In this document: in pieces, positions 2,315 through 17,958 of the stretch
Numbering within the stretch: the stretch's first letter is position 1
Layout of the letters: each line of letters begins with the position of its first letter
NCBI GenBank assembly: GCA_022072455.1
Contig: JAJVHY010000013.1
Location: 124,001 to 188,000 of the forward strand
Reading direction: 5' to 3'
Origin: Verrucomicrobiia bacterium
GTDB taxonomy: Bacteria; Verrucomicrobiota; Verrucomicrobiia; Palsa-1439
DNA length: 64,000 nt
Notes under the pieces: model-generated
What the model saw: only the letters and a program-made list of their open reading frames with translations
What the model was told of the DNA's origin: nothing
Databases searched by the model: none
Translations under genes and position numbers: made by a program

Positions 2315-2527
2315 GTGCGTTGCCGTGTGACTCGATCCGAAACCAAACAGCTTGCCCGCAGAATCCTGATGACGGTCGGGATTATCGCTTATGTCGTCTG
2401 CATGGGCGGGCTGGGCTGGGCGATTCGAGTTGGCACGTTTCCCCAAATACCGACCTGGGTAAGCGGGGCGTTCGTATTGGGCTGCGCTTGCCTTTGGCTG
2501 GCCGGGGAGCTCAAGGAGTCGGGTTAG
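2315..2527 (+). CDS. Small hypothetical membrane protein
   Basis: A 70-residue frame from a GTG codon with two hydrophobic stretches, about residues 18-38 (GIIAYVVCMGGLGWAI) and 48-63 (WVSGAFVLGCACLWLAG), so a two-helix membrane protein is possible. No convincing Shine-Dalgarno precedes the GTG, and in-frame alternatives exist at 2327 (GTG) and 2369 (ATG). It sits between the restriction-modification gene and a repeat array. No family is recognised, and the frame could be fortuitous. Confidence 0.33.
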   Translation: MRCRVTRSETKQLARRILMTVGIIAYVVCMGGLGWAIRVGTFPQIPTWVSGAFVLGCACLWLAGELKESG

Positions 2528-2630
2528 GCTTTTTTTGGGGGGTTACCAGAAAAATGGCAATTTGAGGGTTGCCGGGGTCGTTTTTGGCCATTTTGTGGGT
2601 TTGGCCGCTGAATTTGGTGTGAAACCGGGT

Positions 2631-2836
2631 CCGCTTGCTGGCAAGCGGAGTCCGCTTGAGGGCAAGCCGAGTTCGTTTGCTGGCAAGCGGTGCCGGCTTC
2701 AGGGCACGGCGATGCCGCTTGGGGGCAAGCCGTGCCGGCTTGAGGGCACGACGTTCCCGCTTGCGGGCAAACCGGGGGCCGCTGGTGGCAAGCGCGGCGC
2801 GCTTGTCGGCAACCGGCGCCCGCTTGCCCTTGCGCC
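2631..2836. repeat. Tandem array of ten 21-bp palindromic units
   Basis: Ten head-to-tail units start every 21 bases at 2631, 2652, 2673, 2694, 2715, 2736, 2757, 2778, 2799 and 2820 (the last is partial). The consensus is CCGCTTGnnGGCAAGCCG plus a three-base spacer. Unit 1 is a perfect inverted repeat (CCGCTTGC, TG, GCAAGCGG), so each unit could fold into a small hairpin; later units are degenerate. Because 21 is a multiple of three, any open frame through it reads as heptads. There are no unique spacers, so this is not a CRISPR. It ends about 60 bases before the first possible start of the FN3 gene. Confidence 0.9.
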
Positions 2837-2848
2837 ATAGTTTTTTTG

Positions 2849-2877
2849 TTGAATTTGCCGAACGGCTTTATTTTAAT
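2849..2877 (+). promoter_or_regulatory. Possible sigma70-type promoter for the FN3 gene
   Basis: TTGAAT (2849-2854) and TTTAAT (2872-2877) are separated by 17 bases just after the hairpin array, in a short AT-rich patch unlike its surroundings. Transcription would start near 2884, so the message would include the upstream start at 2900 but not the repeats. This rests on pattern reading only. Confidence 0.35.
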
Positions 2878-2899
2878 TTCGCCAGCCATTGAGGACACC

Positions 2900-2986
2900 A
2901 TGCCAACACGACGCTGGGGCGAAGGCAAATGGAATGATGGCGGTGTCTGGAATGGGCCATCGCCCAGCCAACCCGCAAGGAGAAGC
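2900..2986 (+). other. In-frame W/D/G-rich leader with its own start codon and ribosome-binding site
   Basis: ATG at 2900 is preceded by GAGGA (2891-2895) and opens a 29-residue stretch containing RRWGEGKWNDGGVWNG. It runs in frame, without a stop, into the FN3 protein, whose own ATG at 2987 has a strong AAGGAG (2977-2982). Two products from one frame are therefore possible. A comparable leader with EGWRYD and LRWDG precedes the second FN3 gene at 17253-17363, so the arrangement is unlikely to be chance. Confidence 0.5.
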
Positions 2987-3619
2987 ATGAAGATCATCAA
3001 GATGCCCGTTGCCGGTAAGAACCCCGACACCCTCAGTGATTACGTCACCGAGCTGCTCACGAAACTCGACGATAATGTCGCCGACTTCCCGGCCCCGCCG
3101 AAGGCCGCGCTGGTCGCCAGCCTCGGCCTCCTCGACACCACGCGCGGCGAGTTGGCGACGTTGGAAGCCCAAGTCCAAGGCAAGCAAATCGAGATCGAAA
3201 CCGCCGCCGCCACCGTGCGCACCGACGCCAACGCCCTCGGCGACTGGGCCGAAGGCGTCACCACCGACCCGGCCAAGCTGACCAAAGTCTTTGAACTGCG
3301 CAACGCGCCCACGCCGGCCGGTGCGACCCCGCGCGTGTTGAACCTGAAACTCTCCGCCGGCGATTCCGCCGGTGAGGTCGATAGCGCCTGGAACAGCTTG
3401 TACAAGGACGGCGTCAAGAGTTACGAAGTCCAAACCGTCCTCAACCCGCTCAACAACGATCCGAGTGCCGGCCCCTGGCAGCAGCACCCGAGCGTCACCA
3501 AATCGAAATGCACGCTGGCCGGCTTCACGTCCGGTGCGCGCATCTGGCAGCGCGTCCGCGCCATCGGCCCGCAAGGCCCCGGTGACTGGAGCGACCCGGC
3601 CACCATCATCGTGCCCTGA
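2987..3619 (+). CDS. Helical-bundle plus fibronectin type III domain protein
   Basis: The product is 210 residues from the ATG chosen because AAGGAG lies four bases upstream; starting at 2900 would add a 29-residue W-rich leader. Residues 1-~100 are predicted helical (TLSDYVTELLTKLDDNVADF, then an Ala/Glu-rich heptad-like stretch). Residues ~113-210 form one FN3-like beta sandwich, with KSYEVQTV, a core Trp near GPWQQH, and a C-terminal WQRVRAIGPQGPGDWSDP typical of FN3 strands F and G. No signal peptide or membrane segment is seen. The same architecture recurs at 16329-17252, where it heads a LamG operon; here it is monocistronic, preceded by the 21-bp hairpin array and followed by a terminator. 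Function is unknown; binding or structural roles are inference from FN3 alone. Confidence 0.8.
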   Translation: MKIIKMPVAGKNPDTLSDYVTELLTKLDDNVADFPAPPKAALVASLGLLDTTRGELATLEAQVQGKQIEIETAAATVRTDANALGDWAEGVTTDPAKLTKVFELRNAPTPAGATPRVLNLKLSAGDSAGEVDSAWNSLYKDGVKSYEVQTVLNPLNNDPSAGPWQQHPSVTKSKCTLAGFTSGARIWQRVRAIGPQGPGDWSDPATIIVP

Positions 3620-3641
3620 GCCGGTAAGTTAATAATCACGC

Positions 3642-3680
3642 AGGCCGTCCCGGCAAGTCCTGGGCGGCCTTTTGATTTTT
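3642..3680 (+). terminator. Rho-independent terminator after the FN3 gene
   Basis: AGGCCGTCCC (3642-3651) pairs with GGGCGGCCT (ending 3670) across a short loop, with one mismatch or bulge, and is followed at once by a T-rich run TTTTGATTTTT. It lies 22 bases after the FN3 stop codon and before the nuclease-helicase start. Confidence 0.8.
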
Positions 3681-3729: not shown

Positions 3730-6297
3730 ATGGCCGTCAAAATCAACCTGACCAAGAAAACTGTCGCGCTCGGCGTTGGCGACTTGGTCGCCGAACCGGT
3801 CACGAGCGGCGAACGGGTGGCCGGCTTGCGGCAGTCCGTTCGGTTTGCGCTCGGTCGCGAGGCGCACCTCACCCACCAGCGCGCCCAGTCCGCCCGGCAG
3901 GCGACCTACGCGACCGAGTTTTTTGTGCGGCACGAAACGACCGTGGACGATTTTTCGGTGAAAATCCAAGGCCGGCTCGATGGGGTTCAACCCGGCCCGC
4001 CGACCGTCGTCGAAGAAGTGAAATCGCTCGTGGTCCCGCCGCTGGTGTTCGCGGCGTTGGACGCGAAATCGCACCCGCATCATCTGGAACAACTCCGGTT
4101 GTACTGTTACTTCGTGGAAGCGGCGTCCCCGCCGCGACCGGGCGACGGCCATCGCGGCGGGGACGCCGCTCCCACGACCGTTTTGGGCAAACTCGTTTAC
4201 GTCAACATCGTGGATGGTGCGCGCAAGACGTTCGAGACGACCGGGCCGTATGCTGATTGCCGGGAACTGATCGTCACCCGCGTCCGGGCACTCATTGCCA
4301 CCACCCGTGACCGGGACCGGCAGCGGCACGAACGCCGGCAGCGGGCGGCCGCGCTCCAATTTCCGTTCGCCAAACCGCGCCGGTATCAGGATCAGATGAT
4401 TGCCGCCGTCGAGTCGGCCTTGGAACAAGGCCGGCATCTGCTGGTGTCCGCGCCGTCCGGGATTGGCAAGACTGCCGGTGCGCTTTACCCGGCCATCAAG
4501 TACGCGCTCGCGAACGACAAGCGCGTTTTCTTCGTCACCGCCAAAAACACGCAACACACGCAGGCGGCGGAAACGTTGCGGCGAATGAATAGTGGAACGG
4601 GCGTCTCGCCCGTTGAACCGCCGACAAATCACGGGCGGGACGCCCGTGCCACTACTCCGACTGCCGTCGTCTTGCAGGCACGGGAAAAAATGTGCATCAA
4701 TTCGGTGTACGCCTGCCGGGAGGAGTTCTGTCCGCATCTCCAGATGTTCCAGCTCAAACTGCAACAGACCCGCATCACCGAGGCCGTCATCACTCCGGCC
4801 ATGCTGATGGATACCGGCCGCGCGCTGAGTCTTTGTCCGTTCGAACTCGGCCTCGCCCAAGCCGAACGCACCGACGCCATCGTCTGCGACTACAACTACG
4901 TGTTCGATCCGCAGGTGTATTTCCGGCGATTCTTTCAGGACGAGGATTACTCAGATGCGATCCTCATCATTGACGAGGCGCACAATCTCGTGGCGCGGGC
5001 GTTGGAGTATTACTCGCCGAGTCTCTCGCGCCGGCAAATCCACGAAGCCGGCCAGAGCCTGAGCCACGTCGAGCCATCGCTGGCCCGCGAGTTGCGAAAA
5101 TTTCTCCGGGCGCTGGACGATGTGATTCCGCGGCGCGTTGAACCCGACGAGTATTCCCAACTCGACGAAGCCCCGCCCGGTAAAACATTCCTTGTCGAGT
5201 CCCCCCGACAGTTATTCAACGAACTCAAGCCGACTCTCACCCGGCTCAGCCTCCGGTATCTGCTCGACAAGATCGAAAGCGGCCGAGCGATTCCCGAGGA
5301 TCCGATTAATGATTTCTTTGGCGAGCTGGGCAAGTTTTACAGCGTCCTCGGAATGGAAGGTGAAGAGTTCTCCTACATCAGCGACGGCGAGTCGCTGAAG
5401 ATCGTCTGCAAGGACGCCTCCCGGCAACTCGCCGAACGCCTGGCCGGCTTTCACAGCGTAATTGCAATGTCGGCAACTCTCGAACCGATGGAATTTTACG
5501 ACAAGTTGCTCGGCTTCGACGCGGCGCGGACCGACCGGCTCGCGCTCCCCTCGCCCTTCCCGGCGGAGAACCGAAAAGTCCTCGTCTATCATAAAGTTTC
5601 GACCGCCTTCCGGCATCGCGGGGCAAACTACGACAAGATCGCGGAAGTGATCGCGACAACGGTCGGGGCGCGTCCCGGCAATTACATGGCGTTGTTTCCG
5701 AGCTATGAGTTTTTGCGAGCGGTGGCCCGGCATCTTGGAGGGCCACGCTCCGGCGTGGCCGAGCTGCGGGAAGCGGACGCGACGGAGCGCGTCCCTCCAA
5801 GCTACCAACTAATCGCCCAAGAACCCGGGATGACGGAGGCGCAACGGGCGGAGGTTTTGGAGTCACTGAAGTCGAACATCCCGCCGAAGTTGGTTTTGGC
5901 GGTGCAAGGCGGAGTGTTCGCGGAGGGGGTGGATTATCCCGGGGAGACGCTCTCGGGGGTGATTGTGGTCAGCCCGGCATTGCCGACCGTGAGCTTTGAG
6001 CGCGAGTTGATGCGTCAGTACTACCAAGAGAAGTATGGCAAAGGTTTTGAGTTCGCGTACCTTTATCCGGGAATGAACCGGGTGATTCAATCGGTCGGCC
6101 GGCTGATCCGCTCTGAGACGGATATTGGGGTGGCGGTGTTGGTCTGCCAGCGGTTCGCCCAAAATCAGTATTCCGCGCTTTTCCCGCCCGACTGGTCTGA
6201 GGAGATAAACAGGAGCTTGATTTGCAGAGACTTGCAGGCGGAGTTGCGGTTGTTTTGGCAGGAAAAGCCCTTTACTTTAGGAGGCAATTCCTTATAA
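3730..6297 (+). CDS. RecB/Cas4-like nuclease domain fused to XPD/DinG-type Fe-S helicase
   Basis: The product is 855 residues from ATG 3730; an in-frame TTG at 3706 is less likely. The N-terminal ~170 residues look like a PD-(D/E)XK nuclease: GRLDG (D83), VVEEVKS (E96, K98) and a downstream QLRLYCYF motif. A superfamily 2 helicase follows, with Walker A SAPSGIGKT near residue 239, four cysteines of an XPD/DinG iron-sulfur cluster (C322, C329, C334 and one in LCPFEL near 369), IIDEAHNL near 413, SATLEP, and C-terminal motifs V/VI (FAEGVDYPG, QSVGRLIRS). Nuclease-XPD fusions are known in bacteria and are expected to process DNA during repair. Three palindromic REP-like insertions (4114-4175, 4592-4652, 5735-5800) are translated in frame at domain surfaces or linkers, so the gene tolerates them. 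It is a single gene with its own terminator-separated context. Confidence 0.9.
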   Translation: MAVKINLTKKTVALGVGDLVAEPVTSGERVAGLRQSVRFALGREAHLTHQRAQSARQATYATEFFVRHETTVDDFSVKIQGRLDGVQPGPPTVVEEVKSLVVPPLVFAALDAKSHPHHLEQLRLYCYFVEAASPPRPGDGHRGGDAAPTTVLGKLVYVNIVDGARKTFETTGPYADCRELIVTRVRALIATTRDRDRQRHERRQRAAALQFPFAKPRRYQDQMIAAVESALEQGRHLLVSAPSGIGKTAGALYPAIKYALANDKRVFFVTAKNTQHTQAAETLRRMNSGTGVSPVEPPTNHGRDARATTPTAVVLQAREKMCINSVYACREEFCPHLQMFQLKLQQTRITEAVITPAMLMDTGRALSLCPFELGLAQAERTDAIVCDYNYVFDPQVYFRRFFQDEDYSDAILIIDEAHNLVARALEYYSPSLSRRQIHEAGQSLSHVEPSLARELRKFLRALDDVIPRRVEPDEYSQLDEAPPGKTFLVESPRQLFNELKPTLTRLSLRYLLDKIESGRAIPEDPINDFFGELGKFYSVLGMEGEEFSYISDGESLKIVCKDASRQLAERLAGFHSVIAMSATLEPMEFYDKLLGFDAARTDRLALPSPFPAENRKVLVYHKVSTAFRHRGANYDKIAEVIATTVGARPGNYMALFPSYEFLRAVARHLGGPRSGVAELREADATERVPPSYQLIAQEPGMTEAQRAEVLESLKSNIPPKLVLAVQGGVFAEGVDYPGETLSGVIVVSPALPTVSFERELMRQYYQEKYGKGFEFAYLYPGMNRVIQSVGRLIRSETDIGVAVLVCQRFAQNQYSALFPPDWSEEINRSLICRDLQAELRLFWQEKPFTLGGNSL
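4114..4175. repeat. REP-like bipartite palindrome inside the helicase gene (family B)
   Basis: GTGGAAGCGGCGTCCCCGCC and a matching reverse copy ending CGGGGACGCCGCTCCCAC face each other across a short centre, giving a 62-bp inverted pair bounded by GTGG and CCAC. It is translated in frame as a Pro/Gly-rich loop just after the nuclease QLRLYCYF motif. Confidence 0.85.
4592..4652. repeat. REP-like bipartite palindrome inside the helicase gene (family A)
   Basis: GTGGAACGGGCGTCTCGCCC and its reverse partner ending GGGCGGGACGCCCGTGCCAC form a 61-bp inverted pair. The in-frame peptide contains TGVSPV and GRDARAT, familiar (from memory) as a translated dispersed repeat in Verrucomicrobiota genomes. 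It sits between Walker A and the Fe-S cysteines. Confidence 0.85.
5735..5800. repeat. REP-like bipartite palindrome inside the helicase gene (family C)
   Basis: TTGGAGGGCCACGCTCCGGC at the left end is the imperfect reverse complement of the right end, which finishes GAGCGCGTCCCTCCAA; each arm carries an inner stem. It lies in helicase domain 2 and stays in frame. A related copy is at 62697-62759. Confidence 0.8.
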
Positions 6298-16328: not shown

Positions 16329-17252
16329 TCAACTCACCGTCACCGTCACTTCATTCCCAAACGGGCCCGCTCCCGTCTCATTGACCGCGCGCATCTTGTA
16401 CTTGATCGTCGCCCCAACCGGGCGCCCGGCCAGAATCACATCCGGCCCGGGCGGCGATTCGGTCAACCCATACGCCACATCCGTCCCGACGATGAATTGA
16501 TGCACCTGGTAATACTCCGCCCGCGCGGCGGCCGCGCCTTGCACGCGCACCTGACCGCCACCGAGCGCCGTCGCTTCTGTGTTCTTCACCACGTCCGGCC
16601 GGTCGGGCGCGCCGGGCGGATTGAACCCAAACGTCCGCCACGCCGGATCCAGCGGCCCGAGCAACCCGGCCAGTTCATTCACCAACCCGCGTAACCGGAC
16701 CTGCAGTTTCTCCGCCGCCGCGTCGCGCGCGTTCTTCGACTCACCTTCCGCCTGCGCATGCGCATTCACCGCGCTGCGCGCATCCGACAAGGCCGCGTGC
16801 AACGTCCCGGCCCGCGCCGCCGTCAGATTCACCGCCGACGAATCTTCGTGCGTCGGGTGTGCGGTCAGGTAACTCTGGATGCTGCCGAGCAACGGCAACA
16901 GCTTCTCGCCCGTGGCCGGCACCGCGATGGACTGCGCACTCCAACCAGCGGCCTGCCACGCGTCCGACGGCTTGGTACCGAGAAACTGTTTCAGCCGGTC
17001 CCGCACCGCCATGCAAAACGCGCGCGCATTCGACCGCGCCACGGTTGCCGCCGCCACCAACACTTTGCCTTGCGCCACCAACGTGTCATACGTCGCCGTC
17101 CCGGTGACCAGACTCCCGAGGTCAAGCCGCGTCGCCGCCTCGGTATTCTGCTTGATGCCGACGGTCACTTCCAACTGCTGCAACCCATCGGCGGCATCCT
17201 CCGCCATCGTGATCAACTCATCGAGATTCTCGGGGATTGGATTCTGAGCCAT
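16329..17252 (-). CDS. Helical-bundle plus fibronectin type III domain protein heading the LamG operon
   Basis: The product is 307 residues from ATG 17252, chosen because AAAGGA (17259-17264 on the plus strand) lies six bases upstream; an in-frame start at 17363 would add a 37-residue leader. Residues 1-~210 are helical (NLDELITMAEDAADGLQQLE, then a long Ala-rich bundle), and residues ~215-307 form an FN3-like domain (YYQVHQFIVG, GRPVGATIKYKMRAVNETGAG, ending EVTVTVS). No signal peptide is seen, in contrast to the two LamG genes that follow. It shares architecture, leader and upstream hairpin repeats with the FN3 gene at 2987-3619. Being first in the operon suggests a structural or assembly role; function is not known. 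Confidence 0.82.
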   Translation of the reverse strand: MAQNPIPENLDELITMAEDAADGLQQLEVTVGIKQNTEAATRLDLGSLVTGTATYDTLVAQGKVLVAAATVARSNARAFCMAVRDRLKQFLGTKPSDAWQAAGWSAQSIAVPATGEKLLPLLGSIQSYLTAHPTHEDSSAVNLTAARAGTLHAALSDARSAVNAHAQAEGESKNARDAAAEKLQVRLRGLVNELAGLLGPLDPAWRTFGFNPPGAPDRPDVVKNTEATALGGGQVRVQGAAAARAEYYQVHQFIVGTDVAYGLTESPPGPDVILAGRPVGATIKYKMRAVNETGAGPFGNEVTVTVS

Positions 17253-17363
17253 GGATCGTCCTTTCGGGTGGTGAACGAAAGCCGGCGGTTCCGGAGCGTC
17301 CCCATCCCACCGCAGGCGGGGATCGTCGTAACGCCAACCTTCGTCAAAGCGCAGTTTGGCCAT
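17253..17363 (-). other. In-frame W/D-rich leader upstream of the FN3 gene
   Basis: ATG at 17363 opens a 37-residue in-frame leader containing FDEGWRYDDPRLRWDGDAPE before the better-supported start at 17252. The pattern EG-W-D-W-D/N-G matches the leader at 2900-2986. The upstream ATG itself has only a weak ribosome-binding site. Confidence 0.45.
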
Positions 17364-17409
17364 AATTCACTTGAATACCGGTGGTTTCGGCCTGTTTTCA
17401 CGCCAAAAC

Positions 17410-17696
17410 CCGCCCCGGTAAGAGATTTTGCTTCGAAAAATCCAATCGGCACGTCCCGACCGCCTTTTTCGCGCCATTTTGGCGAATCCTGACGTGCGGG
17501 TTCGACTTTTTGTCCCAAAAAATGCCATCGGCACGTACCCGACGTAGTTTTCGCGTCAGTTTGTCGGATCGGCACGTGCGGGACGGAGTTTTTGCTCCGA
17601 AAAATGTTGGCGGGACGTGGCGGACGAATTTTTTGCTCCGCAAACTCCGCGTCGGACATGCGGGAGTGATTTTTCGCTCCGAAGAATCTGTCCCCG
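17410..17696. repeat. Tandem array of seven degenerate 41-bp hairpin units
   Basis: The landmark ACGT (or a variant) recurs at 17451, 17492, 17533, 17574, 17615 and 17656, exactly 41 bases apart, with a further unit from 17410. Units share a G/C-rich front, a stem around a T-rich loop and an A-rich end (for example CGGAGTTTTTGCTCCGAAAAA at 17585, given here as its stem CGGAG/CTCCG). Stems differ between units but pairing is often kept: CGCCA/TGGCG, GACG/CGTC, CGGAG/CTCCG, GGAGTGA/TCGCTCC. Since 41 is not a multiple of three, the array is not coding. It lies directly upstream of the FN3-LamG operon. Confidence 0.85.
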
Positions 17697-17747: not shown

Positions 17748-17775
17748 CTGCCTGCCTGCCTGCCTGCCTGCCTGC
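17748..17775. repeat. (CTGC)7 tetranucleotide microsatellite
   Basis: Seven perfect CTGC units lie in the intergenic region between the divergent FN3-LamG operon and the hpnG-like gene. The rest of 17701-17958 shows no gene and no clear terminator. Such tracts can change length by slippage, but no start or promoter is close enough to make phase variation obvious. Confidence 0.9.
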
Positions 17776-17958
17776 GCAGCCGGTGTGCCAGAGAGTGTGA
17801 GTCGGTTAGTTATCGCGTTGCACATTCGCACTAGCCCAATCTCCAAAGTCAGCCCAAACCGAATGTCACGTCTTCTAATCGAAACTCTACTGCGTCGTCA
17901 AGTGTCATTTACAAATTAGAGACTGACTCTTATCGTCGGCAGCTTTAGAGTGCCGGTG

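Follow-up and report, generated by a model that had tools for sequence, protein, structure and literature searches.

Tandem palindromic arrays of helical period upstream of fibronectin-III-type genes in Verrucomicrobiota

The DNA analyzed here (referred to as the window) is a stretch of 64,000 nucleotides from the genome of a Verrucomicrobiia bacterium, and it contains two tandem arrays of short palindromic units, each located before a gene of a different protein family. The features are the following:

2489 to 3679, plus strand: duplicated stretch comprising array 2 and its gene, with a 98.8% identical second copy at C4 of the same genome (L179, 1089-2280)
2631 to 2840, plus strand: array 2, ten 21-bp units (also readable as 42 bp), palindrome CCGCTTGCTGGCAAGCGG
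2900 to 3619, plus strand: family-2 gene, 239 amino acids, with a W/G-rich N-terminus, a helical middle part and, on weak evidence, a fibronectin-III (FN3)-like C-terminus
16329 to 17363, minus strand: family-1 gene (open reading frame), 344 amino acids, with a disordered N-terminus, a long helical domain (AlphaFold) and a C-terminal FN3 domain (PDB profile and Foldseek)
17406 to 17692, minus strand (the sense strand of the gene): array 1, seven 41-bp units, unit consensus ATCGGATTTTTCGGAGCAAAAAATCCGTCCGGCACGTGCCG
17748 to 17775, no strand assigned: (CTGC)7 microsatellite, upstream of array 1
17873 to 17901, minus strand: putative promoter-like site TTGACG-N17-TTAGAA, recognized by eye and absent from the automated scan

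Array 1 is intergenic, with the start of the minus-strand family-1 gene on one side and a plus-strand PNP_UDP_1 gene on the other. An initial annotation had placed a tandem array at 17410 to 17696, and the array is real, with seven units that follow an exact 41-bp period and repeat along their whole length, at 17406 to 17692. Self-identity at a lag of 41 was 0.53, compared with 0.25 ± 0.027 in 5,000 local shuffles (maximum, 0.35). The consensus of all seven units is 80% self-complementary (z of 5.9, reached by 0 of 2,000 shuffles), with two dyad centers 20.5 bp apart, at TTTTTCGGAGCAAAAA and CACGTG. Rfam gave three matches in this region, all far below the gathering threshold (E values of 0.79 to 0.98) and none to a credible family. 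The adjoining gene family and the helical spacing, both described below, had escaped the initial annotation.

The AlphaFold model of the family-1 protein (pLDDT of 80) has the three parts listed above, and only the FN3 part matched known structures in the PDB profile and Foldseek searches. No Pfam or NCBIfam family scored above its cutoff. There was no family-1 relative among the phages, plasmids and viral contigs searched, and the resemblance to tail proteins is found at the FN3 level only; a phage origin was rejected on these grounds. We also discarded the idea that the array is bound by the protein encoded next to it, as the part preceding FN3 is not basic (positive net charge in 17 of 57 proteins, mean of −0.3 per 100 amino acids) and as known folds were matched by the FN3 domain alone. 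The genome of the window carries a second family-1 gene, 38% identical to the first, which has its own upstream array with a period of 42 and a different sequence.

Among 39 genomes of relatives searched at the DNA level, G013, a genome of another family, contained a similar 41-bp array. A model of both arrays built from sequence alone recovered about ten arrays in G013 and a handful in the class, with matches in 7 of 384 class genomes at an E value of ≤1e-5, some of them not clear relatives. Several of these arrays lay directly upstream of homologues of the window gene, with their GGAGC core in either orientation to it. A profile of five homologues detected family 1 in 25 of the 384 class genomes; with scoring limited to five candidates per genome, there are at least as many paralogues as counted. 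At 64 family-1 loci, the gene and 1.2 kb of each flank were scanned for periods from 15 to 70. Leaving out seven partial gene matches (<600 nt) and six loci with <600 nt upstream, 51 were testable, and in 37 of them the best upstream period fell between 40 and 44 with a z of >5. Three further upstream arrays were masked by a microsatellite (L065 and L127, recovered with TRF) or split by an insertion sequence (L104/L066), and 11 of the 51 homologues had no clear array (L112 and L135 were weak). Such an array was present in 1 of 63 downstream flanks and in 0 of 64 gene bodies, and control PF01048 genes from 17 of the same genomes (30 loci of 46 matches) had it at 0 of 29 testable loci. Among 387 genomes of the phylum, one more, outside the class, carried family 1, in two copies; upstream of each stood a p41 or p42 array, in one case about 850 bp away.

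In G013, the occurrence of orphan arrays seemed to indicate a partial linkage to the gene. This was rejected, given an insertion between array and gene at L066/L104, presumably IS1595-like from our reading of its protein, and internal deletions at L068 and L069 that keep the array and the operon ends. L002 looks similar, and L064 and L067 are possible exceptions. The remnants at L068 and L069 consist of the N-terminus of the FN3 gene fused to the 3′ end of a collagen-like gene, with the array intact. Such a collagen-like gene stands behind the FN3 gene in both G013 and L165.

Array 2 was the only other strong array in the window (period scan from 15 to 70) and lies 60 bp before the family-2 gene. 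The C-terminus of the family-2 protein aligned weakly to family 1 (hhalign E value of 0.002, probability of 14%), and its AlphaFold model, of low confidence (pLDDT of 47), was set aside as too poor to confirm FN3. Family 2 was present in 25 of 369 genomes. About 65 matches were listed, 30 loci were scanned and 24 were carried forward; the six left out were L179 (the copy of L204), L200 (no upstream sequence) and L201, L202, L203 and L207 (no array). The best period within 17 to 26 was 21 in 23 of the 24 loci and 22 in the remaining one, a figure that, given this selection, describes the period at the analyzed loci, the rate of linkage in family 2 being lower. Each locus has its own units, many of them palindromic, and few of the 24 arrays are individually dyad symmetric. 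The two copies of the 1.19-kb duplicated stretch encode 100% identical proteins and have unlike flanks; the weaker homology that extends upstream of them resembles the outcome of gene conversion in an older duplicate. The array-2 locus is flanked by an N6-methylase/Eco57I-like gene (205-2241) and a DEAD_2/Helicase_C_2 helicase gene (3730-6297), possibly a defense neighborhood.

Periods of 21, 42 or 63 also characterized the strongest arrays (period of at least 15) in 400 kb sampled from the genome. Among them, L209 precedes a third helical gene family without a Pfam match, L218 has no such neighbor and L224 is a short, 97%-matching 21-bp repeat between other genes. At L209 (1-2046), a tyrosine recombinase (PF00589, E value of 1e-32) and a small HTH gene stand directly before the 21-bp array, and the EWGWQYVFPA stretch of this recombinase recalls integron integrases. 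At L218, the 21/42-bp array (5823-6097) has no FN3-type gene beside it and is followed by what we read as an aldo/keto-reductase-like gene.

The periods of 40 family-1 arrays were 42 (24 arrays), 41 (15) and 43 (1), i.e., about four helical turns; the values counted for L127 and L065 rest on their microsatellites, and TRF gives 42 and 41 for their arrays. Unit sequences were unlike between loci, even between paralogues of one genome, and the period was kept; some arrays within one genome resemble each other, for example, in G013. There was no single recognition sequence shared across loci, nor within one genome. The earlier suggestion that selection is not for one particular sequence is supported. 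The unit consensus was dyad symmetric at P < 0.05 in 21 of 38 family-1 arrays (mean z of 2.5), the other 17 not being so individually; this test used 4.2 units of the window array, and it was redone with all seven (the z of 5.9 given above). A dyad-symmetric 42-bp unit implies two dyads 21 bp apart, that is, two turns of B-DNA. Column conservation was also mirrored across the dyad (mean r of 0.18 and 0.22, compared with about zero at other centers), and it exceeded that at other centers in 29 of 38 family-1 and 17 of 24 family-2 arrays. Equal conservation of a position and its mirror position is what a site read by a symmetric protein predicts. We regard the linkage upstream of these genes and the phased geometry as practically certain.

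The initial annotation had also claimed that the stems of array 1 vary between units but keep pairing, and had taken this covariation as a sign of selection for hairpins. Short inverted repeats do exist within single units, and this part of the claim stands. By unit column and on our own reading, CGGAG/CTCCG pairs 15-19 with 26-30, GACG/CGTC 13-16 with 26-29, GGAGTGA/TCGCTCC 12-18 with 23-29 and CGCCA/TGGCG 25-29 with 34-38. The arms thus occupy different registers, indicating separate small inverted repeats rather than compensatory changes in one stem. In the aligned units, the claimed covariation was not supported: 54% of the cells pair in the CGGAG register, with 2 double changes compared with 1.0 ± 0.8 after shuffling (135 of 500 shuffles reach 2), and RNAalifold found 0 consensus pairs in the seven units. 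Pooling 38 family-1 arrays gave 60 pair-keeping double changes compared with 56.8 ± 6.0 in permutations (164 of 500 reach this value), and 23 family-2 arrays gave 40 compared with 51.1 ± 5.4. On the gene-sense strand, G.T and A.C mismatches were similar in number (141 and 145 in family 1, 147 and 135 in family 2), which argues against RNA pairing, as this should favor G.U. Folding energy did not differ between the strands of the arrays (Wilcoxon P = 0.90). RNA hairpins maintained by covariation were therefore rejected, no signal having appeared in the window units or in either family, and these pairing and energy results favor a symmetry of the duplex DNA over a folded strand. The dyad, covariation and energy tests do not include L127 and L065, whose microsatellites had been picked by the automatic finder, and L197 (a 44-bp array with a period of 22) was excluded from the family-2 covariation and trinucleotide tests.

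Farther upstream of the arrays there is often a microsatellite, with a period of 4, 7, 8, 14 or 16. In the genome of the window, (CTGC)n with its flank recurs only at the second family-1 locus, L072. Microsatellites were common to loci of one genome or family whose arrays differ (L103, L072 and the window; L108 and L111; L065 and L070), the shared repeats being (GCAG)n, a 16-mer and a 14-mer. A site resembling TTGAC-N17-TAGAAG lies beyond the microsatellite at L072 as well, again recognized by eye and absent from the automated scans, so that, judging from these sites, transcription may run through the microsatellite and the array. The same 42-bp array was found in two MAGs with six units (L164, 4469-4709) and four units (L165, 182-338), next to FN3 genes that are 97% identical. 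A double change in the last unit of this array preserves its palindrome.

Array 1 appears to be one case of a widespread and apparently undescribed kind of array in Verrucomicrobiota, made of palindromes two or four helical turns apart and located before particular genes, which keeps its spacing and is free in sequence; a search within the open-access PMC literature found no description of such arrays. Our tentative reading, which we hold to have a little less than an even chance, is that the array is a cis-acting, operator-like element of duplex DNA that controls the helical and FN3 gene through phased two-turn dyads. Dyad-symmetric sites would stand in a row two turns of B-DNA apart, every 21 bp in family 2 and as two dyads per 41- to 43-bp unit in family 1, and symmetric proteins, probably dimers, could then bind next to one another on the same face of the helix and act cooperatively. 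Gain or loss of units would change the copy number and thereby tune binding and, hence, expression. If spacing matters more than sequence, either the binder reads mainly geometry or locus-specific binders coevolve with their arrays. The observations behind this reading are upstream linkage, phased period, dyad symmetry, no codon phase, no pair covariation and a change of copy number between close relatives; protein binding, an effect on transcription and the precedence of spacing over sequence are what we infer from them. Several findings count against it. A single sequence-specific regulator would be incompatible with the sequence differences between paralogous arrays of one genome. The depletion of stops on the sense strand of family-1 arrays (see below) is not explained by a pure DNA role. 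The homologues without a clear array (11 of 51), the arrays without such a gene (L218 and possibly L064 and L067), the 17 of 38 family-1 consensuses that are not individually dyad symmetric and the small number of family-2 arrays that are (few of 24) also weigh on this side, as does the fact that a period of 21 or 42 bp equally corresponds to 7 or 14 codons. With somewhat more reserve, we propose that the arrays form a class of cis-acting DNA in Verrucomicrobiota set by geometry, consisting of two-turn dyads with a new sequence at each locus before at least two FN3-type families. Its readers might be a protein sensing dyad symmetry and helical phase or, instead, locus-specific partners coevolving with each array.

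The arrays could also be a mutational by-product, in which template switching multiplies palindromes in a slippage-prone leader and a functionless minisatellite is carried along by a duplicating gene family. Rapid turnover of units, the microsatellites nearby, the different array sequence at each locus and the survival of arrays beside deleted genes are all in line with this. However, chance multiplication fits poorly with a strictly upstream position (none at the control genes and 1 in 63 downstream flanks), with a period fixed at 41 to 43 or at 21 in two families with unrelated units and with conservation mirrored across the dyad, and we consider it unlikely, if deserving of attention. If the promoter-like sites seen by eye beyond the microsatellite at both loci of the window's genome are used, the array would lie in a transcribed 5′ leader, where its hairpins might act in attenuation, stability or protein binding. 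Terminator-like sites are indeed more numerous than expected in the window region (5 compared with 1.3), but such a structured RNA is improbable in view of the missing covariation, the lack of preference for G.U, the equal folding energy of both strands and, on our own reading, the variable orientation of the core to the gene.

Slightly more doubtful is that the leader is translated, with ribosomes crossing the array in any frame, so that sequence would be free and stops avoided, and a frame shift could come from the microsatellite. Stop trinucleotides were indeed depleted in the gene-sense direction of family-1 arrays (116 compared with 196 expected from dinucleotides; sign-flip P = 0.0002), with 187 found and 214 expected on the antisense strand, and 36 of 40 arrays had at least one open sense frame. 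Nevertheless, the variation among units carried no codon-position signal (P < 0.05 in 0 of 22 and 1 of 24 arrays), so that the initial annotation was probably right in arguing against a protein, and the depletion lost strength when each trinucleotide was tested separately and was not significant in family 2. The leaders between microsatellite and array were not depleted (0.99 of expectation; other flanks, 0.95 to 1.10) and, by reading, contain stops in the G243 pair, and periods of 41 and 43 shift the frame at each unit. A coding array with a microsatellite phase switch, prompted by the depletion, was set aside for its absent codon phase and the stops in the leaders, and it is kept here as a rival. 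Finally, array and gene or genes could form a cassette moved in trans, with the array as its recognition end. The deletion derivatives in G013, in which the array survives together with the 3′ end of the following gene, the 1.19-kb duplicate, elsewhere in the genome, that comprises array 2 and its gene, and the tyrosine recombinase beside L209 point in this direction. At the copied stretch, though, no target duplication or terminal repeat was seen and the weaker upstream homology resembles gene conversion; attC core motifs were not enriched in the arrays, the inspected loci had no transposase in common, and this explanation seems to us very improbable.

Control DNA is normally recognized by its conserved sequence, and the dozens of loci described here keep only spacing, symmetry and position, so that comparative genomics based on sequence would miss the class. 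If functional, the arrays would offer a natural experiment on the way proteins read DNA geometry and on how an operator can exchange its whole sequence without losing its job. Two uncharacterized protein families of a little-studied phylum also gain a common feature, the phased arrays upstream of their genes.

Among known systems, CRISPR loci have a constant repeat, unique spacers and cas genes, whereas the units of array 1 repeat over their whole length. REP/BIME palindromes of the GTAG and CGTC families are likewise intergenic and palindromic and have been reported for Verrucomicrobia too (PMC3733652). A REP, however, is a single tagged sequence scattered in many copies, whereas the present arrays run in tandem and belong with one gene family. 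The GTAG tag was rarer than expected in our arrays (in 7 of 62 arrays, with 10 occurrences compared with 49 after shuffling), and CGTC occurred 134 times compared with 85. Integron attC sites are imperfect palindromes next to single genes, and a recombinase does lie beside the L209 array, but the arrays are upstream and tandem, and among the 62 arrays the attC cores RYYYAAC (1 compared with 13 shuffled, in 1 array) and GTTRRRY (7 compared with 13, in 7 arrays) were scarce. At contingency loci, simple repeats of variable copy number upstream of surface-protein genes vary in the promoter or the reading frame, and the arrays share with them a variable number of repeat copies ahead of genes whose products are likely structural; no contingency locus is known to us to combine a free sequence with a kept helical period and dyads. 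Plasmid and phage iterons and cooperative operator arrays have their sites in tandem before a gene, at intervals of whole helical turns and with dyads that suit dimeric binders, and the arrays described here are alike in whole-turn spacing, upstream position and dyads. Iterons of one family, however, share their unit sequence and precede a rep gene, while the arrays have a sequence private to each locus and stand before chromosomal genes, without a known regulator, that encode FN3-type proteins.
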